Source: a virus. Taken from it: a stretch of DNA of 42,334 nt. The notes beneath the pieces were generated by a model. The model saw only the letters and a list, made by a program, of their open reading frames with translations. It was not told the DNA's origin and did not search any database. Shown in pieces: positions 4,357-34,431 of this stretch (position 1 is the first letter of the stretch; every line of letters starts with the position of its first letter). The position numbers and the translations under genes are program-made. Location: IMG/VR virus record IMGVR_UViG_3300036770_002282, positions 1 to 42,334 of that record; one strand, written 5' to 3'.

Positions 4357-5013
4357 TCTACTCATTACAACTTATCTGAAATTCTAAAATCCGTTGGGGC
4401 TATTACTGACCAAGATGCTTCATTACCAACAGGTTCAGACCTAACTCAAAGGCTACAATTTGCTAATGATGCTTTAGGTGAGTGGGCAGATACTTATACT
4501 TGGACAGATTTAAGAAGTACAATCTTTATCAATACAACTAACTCATCAACTACTTCTATAGCACTTCCGACAAACTTTAGAGAACCTTTATCACCACTCG
4601 TTGAGTTTAACGATGATGGTTCAAAGTTCGTTTACCAAGTAACTCCAGCAGTTGACAGATTTAATAAAATTAGTACAGACAAATATTGTTATGTACAAGG
4701 GGTTTACCCTACAAAAGCTTTAATTATACCTAACGCATTACCAAGTGGTGCTTCTTTACAAATTGACTATATGTCATTCCCATCAAGTTTAGCAACTACA
4801 ACTGATACAGTTCCAGTAAGTGCTACACAATATATGGTTAAAAAAATAGCAGCTTTAGTTTTACAAGGAAGGGGAGACCCAAGATTTCCGTCAATCCAAA
4901 ACGATGCACAAAGAATACTCTCCAATGCTATTGAAGAGCAGAATGTGCCATTTGGAAGAGTGAATAGGATACCTTATTACACCGCAGGATTTTCTATCGG
5001 GTATGATGGATAA
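4354..5013 (+). CDS. Head-tail adaptor / tail tubular protein A-like
   Basis: A 219-residue protein. The N-terminal pattern, a helical segment 'TQRLQFANDALGEWADTY' followed by a beta-rich middle and a helical C-terminus, resembles the ring adaptor proteins that bind under the portal of podoviruses (gp4/gp11-type). Its position, directly before the nozzle gene with which it shares one base (stop and start overlap at 5013), supports this. It would connect the portal to the short tail. The start is set by the leaderless-type promoter just upstream. The first CpG after the fibre tract appears inside this gene at 4392. The family call rests on length, order and general pattern and not on a diagnostic motif. 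Confidence 0.65.
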   Translation: MSTHYNLSEILKSVGAITDQDASLPTGSDLTQRLQFANDALGEWADTYTWTDLRSTIFINTTNSSTTSIALPTNFREPLSPLVEFNDDGSKFVYQVTPAVDRFNKISTDKYCYVQGVYPTKALIIPNALPSGASLQIDYMSFPSSLATTTDTVPVSATQYMVKKIAALVLQGRGDPRFPSIQNDAQRILSNAIEEQNVPFGRVNRIPYYTAGFSIGYDG

Positions 5014-9329: not shown

Positions 9330-9331
9330 TT

Positions 9332-9405
9332 GGCTGGGGAACAGAGATTCGAACTCCAATCTCAAACTCCAAAGGTTTGCGTCCTGCCGATTAGACGATT
9401 CCCCA
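9332..9405 (-). tRNA. tRNA-Gln (anticodon UUG)
   Basis: Read on the minus strand it folds fully: acceptor TGGGGAA/TTCCCCA, D arm GTCT/GGAC, anticodon stem CAAAC/GTTTG with loop CTTTGGA (anticodon TTG), T arm around TTCGAAT, discriminator G and an encoded CCA end. U1-A72 is the usual identity pair of tRNA-Gln. It is the only gene on the minus strand in this part of the map, wedged between the holin-like and endolysin genes. It would read CAA, a codon used very heavily in the Gln-rich virion protein at 25477. Confidence 0.95.
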
Positions 9406-18148: not shown

Positions 18149-18499
18149 TTAATAGAATCGATACTCTTCGGACTTCGAGATTTTAATCGTTATGGACTCT
18201 TGAACCCATAATTCCTTAAGAATCTCGATTCCCTTTTTTAATTCGTCTTGAAGTTCGTTGAATCGACTTTCTGGAACTTGGGATTCGATGAGATATAACT
18301 CTTCCCGAATCACTTGACCCGAATTTGATACATATGAACCCCGTACAGGATTCTTATCGTACAATGTCGACCCACCGAATAACGAATCGAATAGAATTTG
18401 AGACTGAGTGAATCTCGAGTCTCTCTCGATTGAAGTAATTACGGTGTCGAACTCAGTTGTCGGTATAAACAACTTTACGATAACATTACTGTTATTCAT
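18149..18499 (-). CDS. Early-block protein, first of a transcript, unknown
   Basis: 116 residues, alpha/beta, with no motif I recognise; 'RGSYVSNSGQVIREELYLIES' in the middle suggests strands followed by helices. It is preceded by AGAAAGG and the leader box, and further up by a TTGACA/TAATAT promoter (18571-18599). The 240 bases between its stop and the next promoter (17908-18148) contain tandem GAAGAC-type repeats and open but unconvincing frames on both strands; I see no gene there. Confidence 0.55.
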   Translation of the reverse strand: MNNSNVIVKLFIPTTEFDTVITSIERDSRFTQSQILFDSLFGGSTLYDKNPVRGSYVSNSGQVIREELYLIESQVPESRFNELQDELKKGIEILKELWVQESITIKISKSEEYRFY

Positions 18500-18620: not shown

Positions 18621-18677
18621 TATTCAATTAATTATTTTAAATGAGTAATAATTGTATCCAGCTTTTTTTAATAAAAA

Positions 18678-18712
18678 AAAATTCCCGAGATTTTAACTTC
18701 GGGAATTTTAAA
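18678..18712 (-). terminator. Intrinsic terminator after the 55-aa gene
   Basis: ATTCCCGA (18681-18688) pairs with TCGGGAAT (18699-18706), extended by A-T pairs. On the minus strand the stem is followed by a long T run, ending the transcript of the gene at 18732-18899. Confidence 0.85.
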
Positions 18713-19028: not shown

Positions 19029-19057
19029 TTGACGGTGTGATTGATTCGTGGTATAAT
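19029..19057 (+). promoter_or_regulatory. Consensus sigma70 promoter of the large RNA
   Basis: TTGACG (19029-19034), a 17-bp spacer and TATAAT (19052-19057), with start predicted near 19064. It is among the best-matched promoters in the window and drives a region with no gene. Confidence 0.85.
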
Positions 19058-19063
19058 TTGATA

Positions 19064-19892
19064 AGGTTTTAACCTATAGTATTTTACACACCTACCACCC
19101 CACCTGTATTAAATACCCACCGATTTATCGGTGTAGGAGTGTTTGAACACATAGTTTACTCGCATATTTACAAAATCCCTTATAAAAAGAATAAATTCTA
19201 AACTGTAACTATACTCGTTCTAACTAATCAAAGTACCTTAGAAGCCATTACAGAGCTTATAAAGGGGTATTTAAACTCTCTTTCCTTATAAGGTTGTAGC
19301 TGTCTGTATTACTGAAATAAAGTATACCCCCTCCGTATAAAATACGGGGGATAAATAAAGTGAGTACATACATTACTCAAATTGGGTAAAAATTGTGTTC
19401 AATAGAGGTGAAAAAATGAGTATAGGGTTGGCAAGAACAGCTAAGACATTAAGAACAATTTTTTGAATTAGGTTATTAAAGCCCAAACTTTTATAACACC
19501 CATTAAAAGTAATACTAAAGCAGTAGTAAAGCAGATTTGCTGAGTCCCCCCTACCCCCAAAAAAAATATGGGAGTAATCCTAATAACCTGTGTCCGTTTT
19601 CTCTCGGGGTTATTTGCCTTATCACATCAGCGCCGTAGCCTTAATACGGTCGGGGAAGAGTATCTGTTAAGGTCAATCTTCTCTTCCAATACCCAACTGA
19701 TGCCAGTTTCCATTCGCAGCAGCCGACAGCTCCTTATTTGGTAGTGGGTCGCTGTCCCGAGTCTATTTCACCTCGTGAGTCCCCCCACCGACATCATTTT
19801 AAAAAAATATATTTGACAAGTCAAGTGTATTTTGTATTTATTATGTAGTCCCAACAATGGTAGTAGAAGAGCAGCCGAAAGGTTGCTTTTTT
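19064..19892 (+). ncRNA. Large structured noncoding RNA (about 830 nt)
   Basis: The region runs from a consensus promoter to an intrinsic terminator, has stops in all frames and no plausible gene. Helices seen by eye: ACAC-A-CCTAC/GTAGG-A-GTGT (19086-19095 with 19133-19142) around ACCGA/TCGGT; a 9-bp stem at 19256-19292; a 9-bp stem at 19330-19350 with loop AAA; TGAGTA/TACTCA (19361-19379); AATAACC..CCG/CGGGGTTATT (19582-19614); CATCAG/CTGATG (19625-19630 with 19697-19702) enclosing CCGTA/TACGG and GGAAGAG/CTCTTCC as a multi-branch junction; GACAGC/GCTGTC (19725-19756). TGAGTCCCCCC occurs twice (19541, 19776). Base composition from 19540 to 19800 is clearly richer in G+C than the flanks. Size and phage setting recall the giant ornate RNAs GOLLD and ROOL, but I cannot confirm membership. 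Confidence 0.75.
19871..19892 (+). terminator. Intrinsic terminator of the large RNA
   Basis: GCAGCC (19871-19876) pairs with GGTTGC (19881-19886) over a GAAA tetraloop, followed by six Ts. Confidence 0.9.
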
Positions 19893-19901
19893 ACTTTGTG
19901 C

Positions 19902-19916
19902 TATAATATAGGTATG
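19902..19916 (+). promoter_or_regulatory. Extended -10, leaderless start
   Basis: TG-C-TATAAT (hexamer 19902-19907), then ATAGGT, then the ATG at 19914. It lies just after the terminator and sets the start of the next gene. Confidence 0.65.
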
Positions 19917-21777: not shown

Positions 21778-21803
21778 ATTATAACCTATAATACTAAAAT
21801 ATG
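21778..21803. promoter_or_regulatory. Overlapping divergent promoters, terS-like (-) / terL (+)
   Basis: Minus strand TATAAT at 21783-21778 ends 6 nt before the ATG of the HTH gene. Plus strand TATAAT at 21787-21792 ends 8 nt before the ATG of terL. The two -10 boxes are only 3 bp apart, so both promoters can hardly be occupied at once. Confidence 0.6.
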
Positions 21804-23087
21804 AGAGATTTTCACCCAGCACAACTTGAGATTTATGAAAACCCAGCAAGGTTTAAAGTAGTTTGTGCTGGAAGAAGATTTGGCAAAAGTGAGCTTTCTA
21901 TCATCTCGATGATGTACTTTGCCCTACTTAACCCGTCAGCTAAAGTAGTTTACTTTGCCCCAACTATTTCCCAAGCCCGTGACATTGTTTGGAACAATCT
22001 TAAAAACTATTCTAAAGAGGCAGGTCTTTGGGCTGGAGAACCAAATGAATCCAGAATGGAAATTCCAATTAAAAACTTAGATAAAAACGGCCACCTCCTT
22101 CCAAGTACATCTGTTATTTGGCTTCGTGGTACTGAAAACATTGAGTCTGCCAGAGGTAATAAAATTGATTACCTTGTCGTTGACGAGGTTGCGTCAATGC
22201 GAAACTGGAGTTATATCTGGAGTGATGTACTGCGTCCTACTCTAACTGACTCTAAAGGACATGCGATGTTTATCTCAACTCCTAAAGGGTTCAATCATTT
22301 TTACGAGATGTTTAATAGGTCGGTAAATGACCCAGACTACGCTTCATTTAGATTTACTTCTTACGATAATCCTTTCCTTGACAAAGACGAATTAGAAAAA
22401 GCAAAGTTAGAAGTAACAGAAGACTCGTTTAAACAAGAGTATATGGCTGAATTTGTGTCAGTATCTGGTCAAGTCTACAAAGAATTTGATGTAGTCAGTC
22501 AGTTTAAGGTGGTTGATTACGACCCATTCTTAGAAGTAAATGTAACTATGGACTTTGGAGTTAATGACCCAACAGCGATTATCTGGATACAGCCAAATGG
22601 AAATGAATTTAGAATTATTGACTATCACGAAGAACAAAATGCTAATGTAGATTACTTTGCAGCTCTTATCAAGTCTAAACCATACCGAGAACCTTCTCTT
22701 TTTACAGGAGACCCTGCGGGTAATGCAAGGTCTATTGTTACTAATACTTCCCCTATTGAGGAGTACGCAAGACACGGAATACATATTAGAACTAAAACTG
22801 GTGTCAAAATTCCAGAACAAATCAGAATTACTCACAAATATATGCGTTCTTTGTATGTTGACAATAAACTTGAGAGGTTAAGGGACTGTTTACTTAACTA
22901 CAGATATCCAGACAGAAAAGCAAATATGTTTTCGACCAGTAATGAAACCCCAATCCACGATGAGTATTCCCACGCTATGAGGGCACTTGAGTATTATTTT
23001 GTAAATGTAGACGGAGGAGGATTTATGAGAAAGTACAACGATATACTACTTCCACAAAACGATGTCTCCAAATGGACTTTTGAGTAG
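21801..23087 (+). CDS. terL: Terminase large subunit
   Basis: 428 residues. The ATPase domain shows Walker A AGRRFGKS (residues 23-30), Walker B DYLVVDE (123-129) and the coupling motif 'AMFISTPKG'. The nuclease domain shows the acidic residues of an RNase-H fold: MDFGVNDPT (about 249), TGDPAG (about 303) and HDEYSHAMRAL near the end. It drives DNA into the prohead through the portal and cuts the concatemer. The portal gene follows after 19 bases. Length and motif spacing are normal for the family. Confidence 0.97.
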   Translation: MRDFHPAQLEIYENPARFKVVCAGRRFGKSELSIISMMYFALLNPSAKVVYFAPTISQARDIVWNNLKNYSKEAGLWAGEPNESRMEIPIKNLDKNGHLLPSTSVIWLRGTENIESARGNKIDYLVVDEVASMRNWSYIWSDVLRPTLTDSKGHAMFISTPKGFNHFYEMFNRSVNDPDYASFRFTSYDNPFLDKDELEKAKLEVTEDSFKQEYMAEFVSVSGQVYKEFDVVSQFKVVDYDPFLEVNVTMDFGVNDPTAIIWIQPNGNEFRIIDYHEEQNANVDYFAALIKSKPYREPSLFTGDPAGNARSIVTNTSPIEEYARHGIHIRTKTGVKIPEQIRITHKYMRSLYVDNKLERLRDCLLNYRYPDRKANMFSTSNETPIHDEYSHAMRALEYYFVNVDGGGFMRKYNDILLPQNDVSKWTFE

Positions 23088-23094
23088 GATTTAG

Positions 23095-23109
23095 TATTGA
23101 TTTAGTATG
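23095..23109 (+). promoter_or_regulatory. -10-like element of leaderless start (portal)
   Basis: TTTAG-TATTGA-TTTAGT-ATG: hexamer 23095-23100, ATG 23107. The match to a -10 is weaker than at other sites, but the spacing is again 6. Confidence 0.4.
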
Positions 23110-25176
23110 GACAATAAAAATAATCCACCAATTAACCAAATTCCAGAAGTAAACGCAATGGATAACGGGTACAATGAACTTTTTGCTGAAGTTAACTACC
23201 ATTATACCTACGGAACACAAGATATGGAAACCCGAAAGTTAAGAAAAAACGGGTGGGACGATATTGTTAAAGCATATTACGGAAGATTACCAAATAACTG
23301 GCCTTATTTATCAAGAGTAGTTGACCCAGTAATCAGAACTGCTCTCATTGAGAAGACTTCAAGACTATTTAACGGAAAATTAAGGGGTGTTGTTGTACCA
23401 AGAGAGACAGGAGATGCTATTAAAGCTAAAATTATTAACGCAGTTCTTGACTATTACTGGGATAATGCCCAACTTGGTGGCTCAATGCTTGAGAAATGGG
23501 CACTTATGGACACTTATACAAGACTATTTGGGGCAGCATTTGCCCTTTGCTACTGGAGAAAGACCGATGATTACGATGGAGTCGAGTTTAAAGTACTTGA
23601 TAACAGAGATGTATTTGTTGATTACCAAGCAAACTCAGTTAAAAATGCAAACTGGGTACAAGTAAGAGAGTGGAAAACACTACAAGAACTAAAAAACACC
23701 ACACTTGATGGTGAAAGTTTATACGAAAATTTAGATGAATTAGAAAAAATAATGCTTGCTGAGTATCAAGGTGATAGAAGAGACACCAGATACACTTCAA
23801 TGGTTAAACAACTAAGAGGACTTGAAGATAGAGTCGGACAAGACATCTACTTTAAGACTGTTGAGGTTGTAACCGAATATAGAAAAGACAGATGGGTAAC
23901 ATTTACCCCAAGATATGGACTTATTTTACGAGATATTGAAAATCCTCTCGATTCAAAGATTATTCCTATTGTTCAATTAAGATATTACCAAAACGGAGAT
24001 GATGTTTATGGTGAAAGTGAATTTGAAGCAGTACTTCCAATTCAAAGAGCAATTAATGCTAACCTTTGTGCTTTCCAAGACCAAATCAACTTCTCTCTAA
24101 GACCTCCAATTAAGGTGGCAAACAACGCAGACGGAGTTAGACTTGACACAATCGTGTATGCACCTAATGCTTTGTGGCTTACAGGTTCTACACCTAACAA
24201 TATTATCGAACACCAATCTGGAACACAAGTTGTTCAACAATTCTCAACTACTTACCAGGTATTAAAGTCAGCTTTCAACACAGCACTTGGTGAATTATCA
24301 TCTGGAGTTTCAAATGTAAACCCAACTGCTACCGAAAAGACAGCAACTGAAGTAAGAGCAACTTTCACACAGATGCAATCCAGAGACCAATACAACCAAC
24401 TCTTTTTAACAGAAGCTTTAAAAGACCAAATGGTGATGTGGATTAGACTTATCCAACAATTTCTTTTTGACGACCCAACTAAATACGAGATTATCTTTAA
24501 GATAACTGGTATGGATATGTTAAACGAACTAAAGAGATACGCACTTGACGACATGGAAGTTCCAGATGAGGTTACAACCCAAATGGCTGACATGATTTCA
24601 CAAGACCCTAACATGGCAGATACTGATGTTATTCAAACTATGATTGAAAACACAGCTATCCCTGCTTACCCAGTCAATATGAAACCATCTTCAAGAAATG
24701 GTGAATTTGCACCTAAGATGGAAATGGATAAGTACGGGGAGTTCGCAGTTTTAAGAGTTACACCAGAAGATTTAGAAGGTCAATATGATTACATTCCAGA
24801 TGTTAAATCAATGGCTATTGGAACTAACGACCAGTTAATAAATGGAAGAAACCAACTATTAACAATTCTATTAAATCCAAATGTAACAGCACAATTACAA
24901 AGTGAGGGAGACAGAATTAAAGTAAAAGATTTAATTATCGCAATAGCGGAAGATAACGGAGTAAGAAATGCAGGAAAATTTTTTGAATCAGTACAAACAG
25001 GAGCTGGACAACCAGGTATGGGAGGAGGACTTCCAACCGACATTAACCAAGCAGCAGGAGGAATTATTAACCCAAGCCAAATTAATCTTGGAGGTGCAGG
25101 AGCACAAGGGCTTCCAACATCTACTGAGCTTTTTAATGGGCAAGGTGCAGGAGTTTCCCAACCCATCGGTCTATAA
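23107..25176 (+). CDS. Portal protein (head-tail connector)
   Basis: 689 residues, the size of podoviral portals. It follows terL and shows 'NGWDDIVKAYYGRLPNNWPYLSRVVDPVIRTALIEK'-type entry helices, a 'YYQNGDDVYGESEFEAVLPIQRAINA' segment typical of portal wing and stem regions, 'ATEKTATEVRATFTQMQSRDQY' and a Gly/Gln-rich disordered C-terminus. Twelve copies would form the ring through which DNA enters and leaves the head. No nuclease or protease domain is fused. (Segment strings are shortened in the assignment; the key residues are the NGDDVYGES turn and the ERA-like helices.). Confidence 0.88.
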   Translation: MDNKNNPPINQIPEVNAMDNGYNELFAEVNYHYTYGTQDMETRKLRKNGWDDIVKAYYGRLPNNWPYLSRVVDPVIRTALIEKTSRLFNGKLRGVVVPRETGDAIKAKIINAVLDYYWDNAQLGGSMLEKWALMDTYTRLFGAAFALCYWRKTDDYDGVEFKVLDNRDVFVDYQANSVKNANWVQVREWKTLQELKNTTLDGESLYENLDELEKIMLAEYQGDRRDTRYTSMVKQLRGLEDRVGQDIYFKTVEVVTEYRKDRWVTFTPRYGLILRDIENPLDSKIIPIVQLRYYQNGDDVYGESEFEAVLPIQRAINANLCAFQDQINFSLRPPIKVANNADGVRLDTIVYAPNALWLTGSTPNNIIEHQSGTQVVQQFSTTYQVLKSAFNTALGELSSGVSNVNPTATEKTATEVRATFTQMQSRDQYNQLFLTEALKDQMVMWIRLIQQFLFDDPTKYEIIFKITGMDMLNELKRYALDDMEVPDEVTTQMADMISQDPNMADTDVIQTMIENTAIPAYPVNMKPSSRNGEFAPKMEMDKYGEFAVLRVTPEDLEGQYDYIPDVKSMAIGTNDQLINGRNQLLTILLNPNVTAQLQSEGDRIKVKDLIIAIAEDNGVRNAGKFFESVQTGAGQPGMGGGLPTDINQAAGGIINPSQINLGGAGAQGLPTSTELFNGQGAGVSQPIGL

Positions 25177-32199: not shown

Positions 32200-32274
32200 G
32201 CTGGTGTAGCTCAAAGGCAGAGCAGTTGTTTTGTAAACAACAGGTTGTAAGTTCGATTCTTATCACCAGCTCCA
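32200..32274 (+). tRNA. tRNA-Thr (anticodon UGU)
   Basis: Full cloverleaf: acceptor GCTGGTG/CACCAGC, D arm GCTC/GAGC, anticodon stem GTTGT/ACAAC with loop TTTGTAA (anticodon TGT), T arm GTAAG/CTTAT around TTCGATT, discriminator T and an encoded CCA. It reads ACA, frequent in the Thr-rich virion proteins. A leaderless-type promoter begins 8 bases after its end. Confidence 0.95.
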
Positions 32275-33516: not shown

Positions 33517-34431
33517 ATGGCATTTGGATTACAAACCTACCAAGACGCTTCAAGAAGAGAAGATTTAATTTCTTTACTAAGAGATGTTTCTCCATTAGGA
33601 GGTAACTATCTAACTGGTAATCTTGGAACATCTGTAGCAAGAAACACTCTACACGAGTGGACTACTTACCACCAAACAAGACCAACTTCCGTAACTTTCT
33701 CAGTTGAAGGTGCTGAAGCTTCTTTCGATGACCTAACAGCTCCTGTTAGAAGTAACAATGTTACTGCAATCATCACAGAGAACCTAAAAGTATCAAATAC
33801 TGAAAGAGCTGTAACTAACGCTCAATATGTTGACCCATTCACAATGCAAAAAGAAAAAGCATTGATGAGAATGAACGCAAAAATTGAATTCGCATTAGTT
33901 AACGGAACAAAAGCTTCTGGTGCATCTGGAGTAGCAAGAGGAATGGCTGGAATCGATTCATGTATCACAACTAACGCAACTGCATTAGCTTCTGGTACTT
34001 CTTTAACAGTTACAGGACTTGAAGACTTACTACAACTTTCTTACAACCAAGTTGGAATGGAATATATCGCTGATGTAATATTAGTACCTATGATTTTGAA
34101 GAGAAGAATTTCTCAATTCACAACTCCTATTACTAACTATGTCAACGAAACAGATAAACTATATCAAAATGTTTCTGTATTCGATTCCTCATTAGGTCAA
34201 GTAAGAATTATCCCTCACAGAGATGTAAGAAATGTAGCTGGTTCTACAACTATCTACGCTCTAAGAATGGATACATTCAAAGTTGCTTACCTTGAAGGTA
34301 GACAACCAAGCTTTAAAGAACTTCCAGCAAACGGTGATTACACAGCAGGTCAGTACATTACTGAGTTGACTTTAGAATCATTAGCTGAAAAAGCTTCTGT
34401 AAAAGCAACTGGTTACGCAAACACATTATAA
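33517..34431 (+). CDS. Major capsid protein (SU10-type)
   Basis: 304 residues with the features of the SU10 major head protein family (Pfam SU10_MHP, HK97 fold): N-terminal 'RREDLISLLRDVSPLGGNYL', 'ARNTLHEWTTY', 'VTAIITENLKVSNTERAV', and a C-terminal 'IIPHRDVRNVAGSTTIYALRMDTFKVAYLEGRQP' (key residues IIPHR and the final AEKA helix). It forms the icosahedral shell. Codons are strongly biased (GGA, ACT, AGA), as expected for the most abundant protein. A seven-codon ORF with AGAAAGG inside precedes it (33484-33507); the true ribosome signal is unclear. Confidence 0.93.
   Translation: MAFGLQTYQDASRREDLISLLRDVSPLGGNYLTGNLGTSVARNTLHEWTTYHQTRPTSVTFSVEGAEASFDDLTAPVRSNNVTAIITENLKVSNTERAVTNAQYVDPFTMQKEKALMRMNAKIEFALVNGTKASGASGVARGMAGIDSCITTNATALASGTSLTVTGLEDLLQLSYNQVGMEYIADVILVPMILKRRISQFTTPITNYVNETDKLYQNVSVFDSSLGQVRIIPHRDVRNVAGSTTIYALRMDTFKVAYLEGRQPSFKELPANGDYTAGQYITELTLESLAEKASVKATGYANTL

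Follow-up and report, generated by a model that had tools for sequence, protein, structure and literature searches.

A probable new family of pseudoknotted phage RNA encoded close to the terminase genes

The intergenic region upstream of the packaging genes of a tailed phage raises the question of whether it encodes a large structured RNA and, if so, on which strand, over what length and of what class. The window is the whole stretch of DNA analysed, a 42,334-base IMG/VR tailed-phage contig (IMGVR_UViG_3300036770_002282) that also carries genes for a CHAP endolysin, ERF and a DnaB helicase. The element lies in 1.4 kb between leftward genes (ending at 18499) and rightward genes (from 19914), with the annotated head and packaging genes to its right on the plus strand. 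The first-pass annotation had read this interval as one plus-strand RNA of 830 nt with its own promoter and terminator, belonging to GOLLD or ROOL, to a distant relative or to a new class. Its simpler observations hold: no open reading frame of at least 60 aa was found between 18500 and 19856, G+C content is raised (0.49 in 19540-19800 vs 0.35 window-wide) and TGAGTCCCCCC is duplicated, with copies at 19541-19551 and 19776-19786. The landmarks of the locus are these.

9331-9405: tRNA-Gln
19085-19540, minus strand: variable 3′ extension (minus reading) with a putative 3′ end, recognisable in one relative only (L003)
19541-19790, minus strand: conserved structured RNA core matched by covariance model R2, with putative termini and the 5′ end probably near 19790
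19546-19558, minus strand: conserved motif, CCCCCCTACCCCC on the plus strand and GGGGGUAGGGGGG in a minus-strand RNA, present in all six homologues (variant CCCCCTTCCCCC in L003)
21801-23087: terminase large subunit
23107-25176: portal-like protein
32200-32274: tRNA-Thr
33517-34431: major head protein

Folded on the plus strand, the region exceeds its shuffles in stability (z of -4.8 with the terminator and -3.4 without it), but a stable fold alone shows no conserved RNA and homologues were therefore sought. The element was recovered from six related phage contigs, all metagenomic: the window, L003, L047, L049, L238 and L251 (the same record as L239). L003, found by a terminase query (terminase 89% identical), carries the whole interval in diverged form (~51% identity) in its syntenic intergenic region, while L047 and L049, found by a terminase profile search (terminases 62% and 60% identical), hold the part corresponding to 19541-19790 directly upstream of a TerS-like gene. 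L239 and L238 came from a portal profile search and constitute a second subfamily; the two are 78.5% identical, lack helix H1 and share CCCCCCTACCCCC, helices H3 and H4 and 3′ motifs with the other members. Model R2 finds the core in its training set (window, L003, L047 and L049) and, among held-out records, in L251 at 21.5 bits (E ~2e-4; 20-21 bits by R1/R2) and in L238 at 13 bits (E 0.057). Every copy found sits within a few kb of terminase or portal genes.

This comparison breaks up the single 830-nt unit first proposed, with conservation across the six phages spanning 19541 to ~19790 and 19064-19540 being recognisable in L003 only. The conserved blocks that the window and L003 alone have in common in that outer part are AACACATAGTTTA (19146-19158) and CCTTATAAGG (19284-19293), and the consensus fold gives one signal with z -7.2 over 19064-19190 and another with z -3.3 from 19443, with none between. 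Whether the first 480 nt of the original interval belong to the RNA is less certain than for the core. The 10-nt palindrome CCTTATAAGG is identical in the window and at 3619-3628 of L003, in regions otherwise half-diverged, and might act as a loop for self-association or, in the DNA, as an operator. A 16-codon plus-strand reading frame at 19417-19467 with a possible Shine-Dalgarno sequence was dropped as a conserved gene, its L003 counterpart encoding a different peptide.

Beyond the six contigs, most relatives in the terminase and portal clades gave no R1 or R2 match. HTVC034P and Vibrio phage 1.266.O, the cultured phages closest in terminase, showed no match, and blastn queries with the window RNA and with the element of L238 matched no INPHARED phage. 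In IMG/VR DNA pattern scans not tied to terminase, the genuine copies were all terminase-linked and the other matches were mostly chance matches in coding DNA; a scan of bacterial and archaeal genome contigs gave 20 matches, about the chance expectation, none of them model-supported. L051 has an element scoring 12 bits, and L005, L053, L054 and L212 have weakly conserved ones; all were examined and none was accepted as a member. The latter four relatives have, at the same site upstream of terminase (L005:5310-5350, L054:3911, L053:2131, L212:425), a different weakly conserved noncoding element marked by a pair of C-runs (read on the minus strand, G-run N2 G-run) and a common CACTTCGCT patch. 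A C-rich/G-rich dyad (e.g., CCCCTCCGTAT-AAA-ATACGGGG) also recurs before the terminase module in several relatives (window 19328-19349, L005 ~5490, L053 ~2237, L047 ~405, L049 ~5405), the window's copy lying within the RNA region's 3′ extension.

The comparison of homologues revealed conserved helices, in line with the original claim that helices exist. They are listed here with the pseudoknots in plus-strand coordinates, without assignment to a strand.

19582-19588 with 19608-19614 (span 19582-19614): helix H1, four different arm sequences
19632-19637 with 19645-19650: hairpin H3, six sequences
19654-19660 with 19681-19687 (span 19654-19687): hairpin H4, with conserved loop TATCTGTTARGKTCAA (plus sense)
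19617-19621 with 19668-19672: pseudoknot PK3, linker CCTTA with H4 loop TAAGG, covariation in four phages
19725-19788: candidate H-type pseudoknot PK1/PK2, topology shared with L003, L047 and L049 by different arms

In H1, hand-checked in four sequences, 30 of 33 cells are paired with double substitutions in six of nine pairs, and the helix continues through a 5-nt bulge into a 3-bp helix (H1b) closing an invariant 8-nt loop at 19597-19604. Among six sequences H3 has 34 of 36 cells paired and double substitutions in all six pairs (2 of 720 permutations as good), and H4 has 40 of 42 cells paired and double substitutions in six of seven pairs (1 of 720). Over the whole six-sequence R2 alignment 87% of cells are paired, a figure that falls to 70% when the 3′ letters are shuffled; double changes occur in 17 of 30 pairs (8.6 when shuffled) and the covariation score is 0.42 (0.17 when shuffled), with none of 500 shuffles reaching any of five measures; sliding the 3′ partners by 1-3 columns lowers pairing to 37-50% and the score to at most 0.12. 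This alignment was fitted to the structure, with the window and L003 rows one column out in places, and an alignment-independent stem search was therefore run. Requiring at least two double substitutions, the pairwise search gave 1-4 stems per alignment vs 0.1-0.7 in column-shuffled controls, recovering H1, H3 and H4 and revealing PK3, which had not been looked for. RNAalifold on automatic alignments found part of the structure only, arms of unequal length being misaligned. The closing helix of the multi-branch junction originally described was not borne out: formed by CATCAG/CTGATG in the window, it has a possible counterpart in L003 (ACACG/CGTGT) and none in the others.

The arms of PK3 differ between phages (window CCTTA/TAAGG, L003 ACCTA/TAGGT, L047 ACATA/TATGT, L049 ACATT/AATGT) and are Watson-Crick paired in 20 of 20 cells, a value that no other matching of the arms equals (1 of 24). 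At that position L238 has a comparable pairing of linker and loop (7 bp), as has L251 (4 bp). Because this compensatory pairing is a pseudoknot kept in four phages, a DNA cruciform cannot explain it. The candidate PK1 would pair GACAGC (19725-19730) with GCTGTC (19751-19756) and PK2 would pair GTGGG (19744-19748) with CCCAC (19784-19788), PK2 being seen in L238/L251 too; both pairings are less certain than H3, H4 and PK3 because their arms were picked by eye. With H3, H4 and PK3 kept by compensatory changes while the sequence diverges and no protein frame is present, the comparison argues that a compact multi-helix pseudoknotted RNA fold is under selection and bears out the proposal of a large structured noncoding phage RNA. 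That the region is an AT-rich intergenic stretch with chance hairpins is in keeping with single-sequence cores that are not unusually stable on either strand (z ~0.4 to -1.4 in all but one), but in several diverged phages H1, H3, H4 and PK3 have undergone compensatory changes, which refute it for the core and leave it barely credible overall.

The strand of this RNA decides how the flanking signals are to be read.

19029-19057, plus strand: promoter-like site TTGACG-17-TATAAT, absent from L003
19796-19824, minus strand: candidate RNA promoter TTGACT-17-TAAAAT, a putative site matching at 10/12
19866-19892, plus strand: intrinsic terminator before the late operon, GCAGCC-GAAA-GGTTGC then TTTTTT, -14.4 kcal/mol

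The best promoter and terminator of the window are both on the plus strand, as first reported, the 19029 site matching at 11/12 with a TG before the second hexamer. A plus-strand RNA of the same family, ~830 nt long, starting at the 19029 promoter and ending at the 19871 terminator in a layout like that of lambda 6S and possibly concerned with antitermination of the packaging genes lying to its right, would make use of both; it is also favoured by the more negative plus-strand fold of the whole interval (z of -3.4 vs -0.5 on the minus strand in the window, -2.7 vs -2.0 in L003) and by a different plus-strand site in L049 (TTGAAA-18-TATAAT, 4895-4924). However, neither signal has a counterpart in L003, no terminator is visible at the corresponding position of L003, L047 or L049, and the two signals, first taken as the ends of the conserved RNA, probably do not belong to it. 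Promoter-like sites in the region number 11 vs 8.8 expected by shuffling. The first rightward gene has its own TATAAT just 6-8 nt before its ATG (window 19895-19916, L003 4350-4368, L047 445-463, L049 5450-5464), which counts against a plus-strand leader; a TATAAT this near the ATG also suggests leaderless transcripts in the host.

Base pairing points to the minus strand. Among non-Watson-Crick cells, the hand-curated helices read on the plus strand contain five A.C and one G.U, and since A.C on the plus strand is G.U on the minus, H1 in L003 and L047 and H3 in L003 and L238 are uninterrupted on the minus strand only. Hand inspection of a hairpin at 19328-19349 and its L003 counterpart also favours the minus strand by wobbles, while the asymmetry is weaker in the model-made alignment (10 G.U vs 5 A.C, p 0.15) and a small hairpin of L047 (CAGG/CTTG) speaks for the plus strand. 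The invariant unpaired bases are A/G-rich on the minus strand (AGAGAAAA, UUGAACNUAACAGAUA, UGAUGUGAUA and GGGGGUAGGGGGG), making the conserved loops pyrimidine-rich on the plus strand, and from the typical composition of RNA loops they give a log likelihood ratio of 4-9 for the minus strand. Just before the element on that strand, at the place homologous to the candidate promoter, L003 has TTGACG-16-TAAAAT (4105-4078), and directly past the element's plus end L003 has an 86-aa minus-strand reading frame with no visible plus-strand terminator. Taken together, wobbles, purine-rich loops, shared hexamers and the L003 gene order make the original plus-strand assignment probably wrong and place the RNA, with good though not full confidence, on the minus strand; the plus-strand RNA is accordingly a minority reading of roughly one chance in a few. 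Within the window, 18666-18712 forms a strong minus-strand hairpin with a T9 tract, which may either stop transcription running leftward out of the RNA or mark where the intergenic region ends.

The position of the element admits a packaging role, either as a motor RNA like phi29 pRNA or as a pac/cos DNA site with helix-like dyads. Such a role would suit the closeness of all copies to terminase or portal genes and the other C-run elements that RNA-less relatives have at the same site, but the compensatory pairing in PK3 and the conservation of single-stranded loops are unexpected of a DNA site, and a TerS-like gene before TerL in L047, L049 and L005 leaves no obvious gap for a pRNA. In L239, moreover, the orientation of the element relative to the late genes is reversed, which speaks against a packaging role and against the plus-strand reading alike, and because of this flip a free-standing RNA is favoured over a cis-acting leader of the packaging operon. 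A packaging-associated element is on balance improbable.

The best explanation, and probably the right one, is therefore a new family of free-standing, structured and pseudoknotted phage RNA encoded on the minus strand. Against it count the small membership, six in all with H1 missing from two, and the lack of R1 or R2 matches in most of the clade. Transcription would start near 19790 and run leftward from the RNA's own promoter, yielding a core of ~250-290 nt and, in this phage and its nearest relative, a longer form of up to ~700 nt. The folded RNA would act in trans during the phage cycle as an RNA-protein particle or an RNA-only assembly, being, by analogy, either protein-bound or self-assembling as GOLLD and ROOL do (PMC12286853).

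Searches for known RNA families give this reading its novelty. Rfam cmscan of both strands at gathering and permissive thresholds found no relevant match in the window at E<=10 or in L003, L047, L049, L238 and L251 at E<=5, the few hits listed being chance matches far below the curated cut-offs. The GOLLD model (RF02032), searched at E<=10, matched neither the window nor the five homologous records. The group II intron model RF01998 was absent from the six records, with positive controls that worked, and cmscan gave no hit to D1D4 or other Rfam intron models. The ROOL model (RF03087) matched none of the six records, a negative that by itself weighs little as the control genomes gave no match either, and the Rfam-wide cmscan was likewise empty. 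GOLLD often lies near tRNA islands, but no tRNA island adjoins the element, and the nearest tRNA gene of the window is ~10 kb off or more. A diverged member of GOLLD or ROOL would share a phage-encoded, large, pseudoknotted and apparently independent RNA of similar length; given the searches on either strand and the distance from tRNA genes, membership in either is not supported, is already disfavoured and would be a very long shot. Of the classes first offered, the new one thus stands, with H3, H4 and PK3 kept by compensatory changes among its homologues.

Among the few large structured phage RNA classes known, GOLLD and ROOL build RNA-only cages of unknown function, the homo-oligomeric nanocage of GOLLD being a 14-mer (PMC12286853). 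A multi-pseudoknot RNA class tied to the packaging module that forms an RNA machine or self-assembling particle independently of GOLLD and ROOL is a tentative proposal, with perhaps one chance in three of being right. If true, it would be another sequence-unrelated family with covariation-supported pseudoknots at a fixed place beside terminase genes, and a further case in which to ask how common such particles are in phages and whether some play a part in packaging or in control of the late phase.

Other phage RNAs offer further comparisons. Lambda 6S RNA and the late leader, as generally known, resemble the element only on a plus-strand reading, in which a leader would run from promoter to terminator ahead of the late operon, but the element has an elaborate conserved pseudoknotted fold, a probable location on the opposite strand and an inverted position in one relative. 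Like phi29 pRNA, as that RNA is generally described, it is a structured phage RNA and lies near packaging genes, but the terminase here is of the TerS/TerL type and no pRNA family was matched in Rfam. GOLLD is a large, independently folded phage RNA of unknown function with a conserved and a variable part (PMC12286853), a division that the element shares, although the element has a smaller core, adjoins terminase rather than tRNA genes and lies outside the GOLLD model. ROOL, a large RNA of phages and prophages, contains multiple pseudoknots and is not known to have a protein partner (PMC12286853), and although the element differs in position and lies outside the ROOL model, it resembles ROOL as a large phage RNA with multiple pseudoknots. 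Behaviour like that of GOLLD and ROOL is, by analogy, possible.
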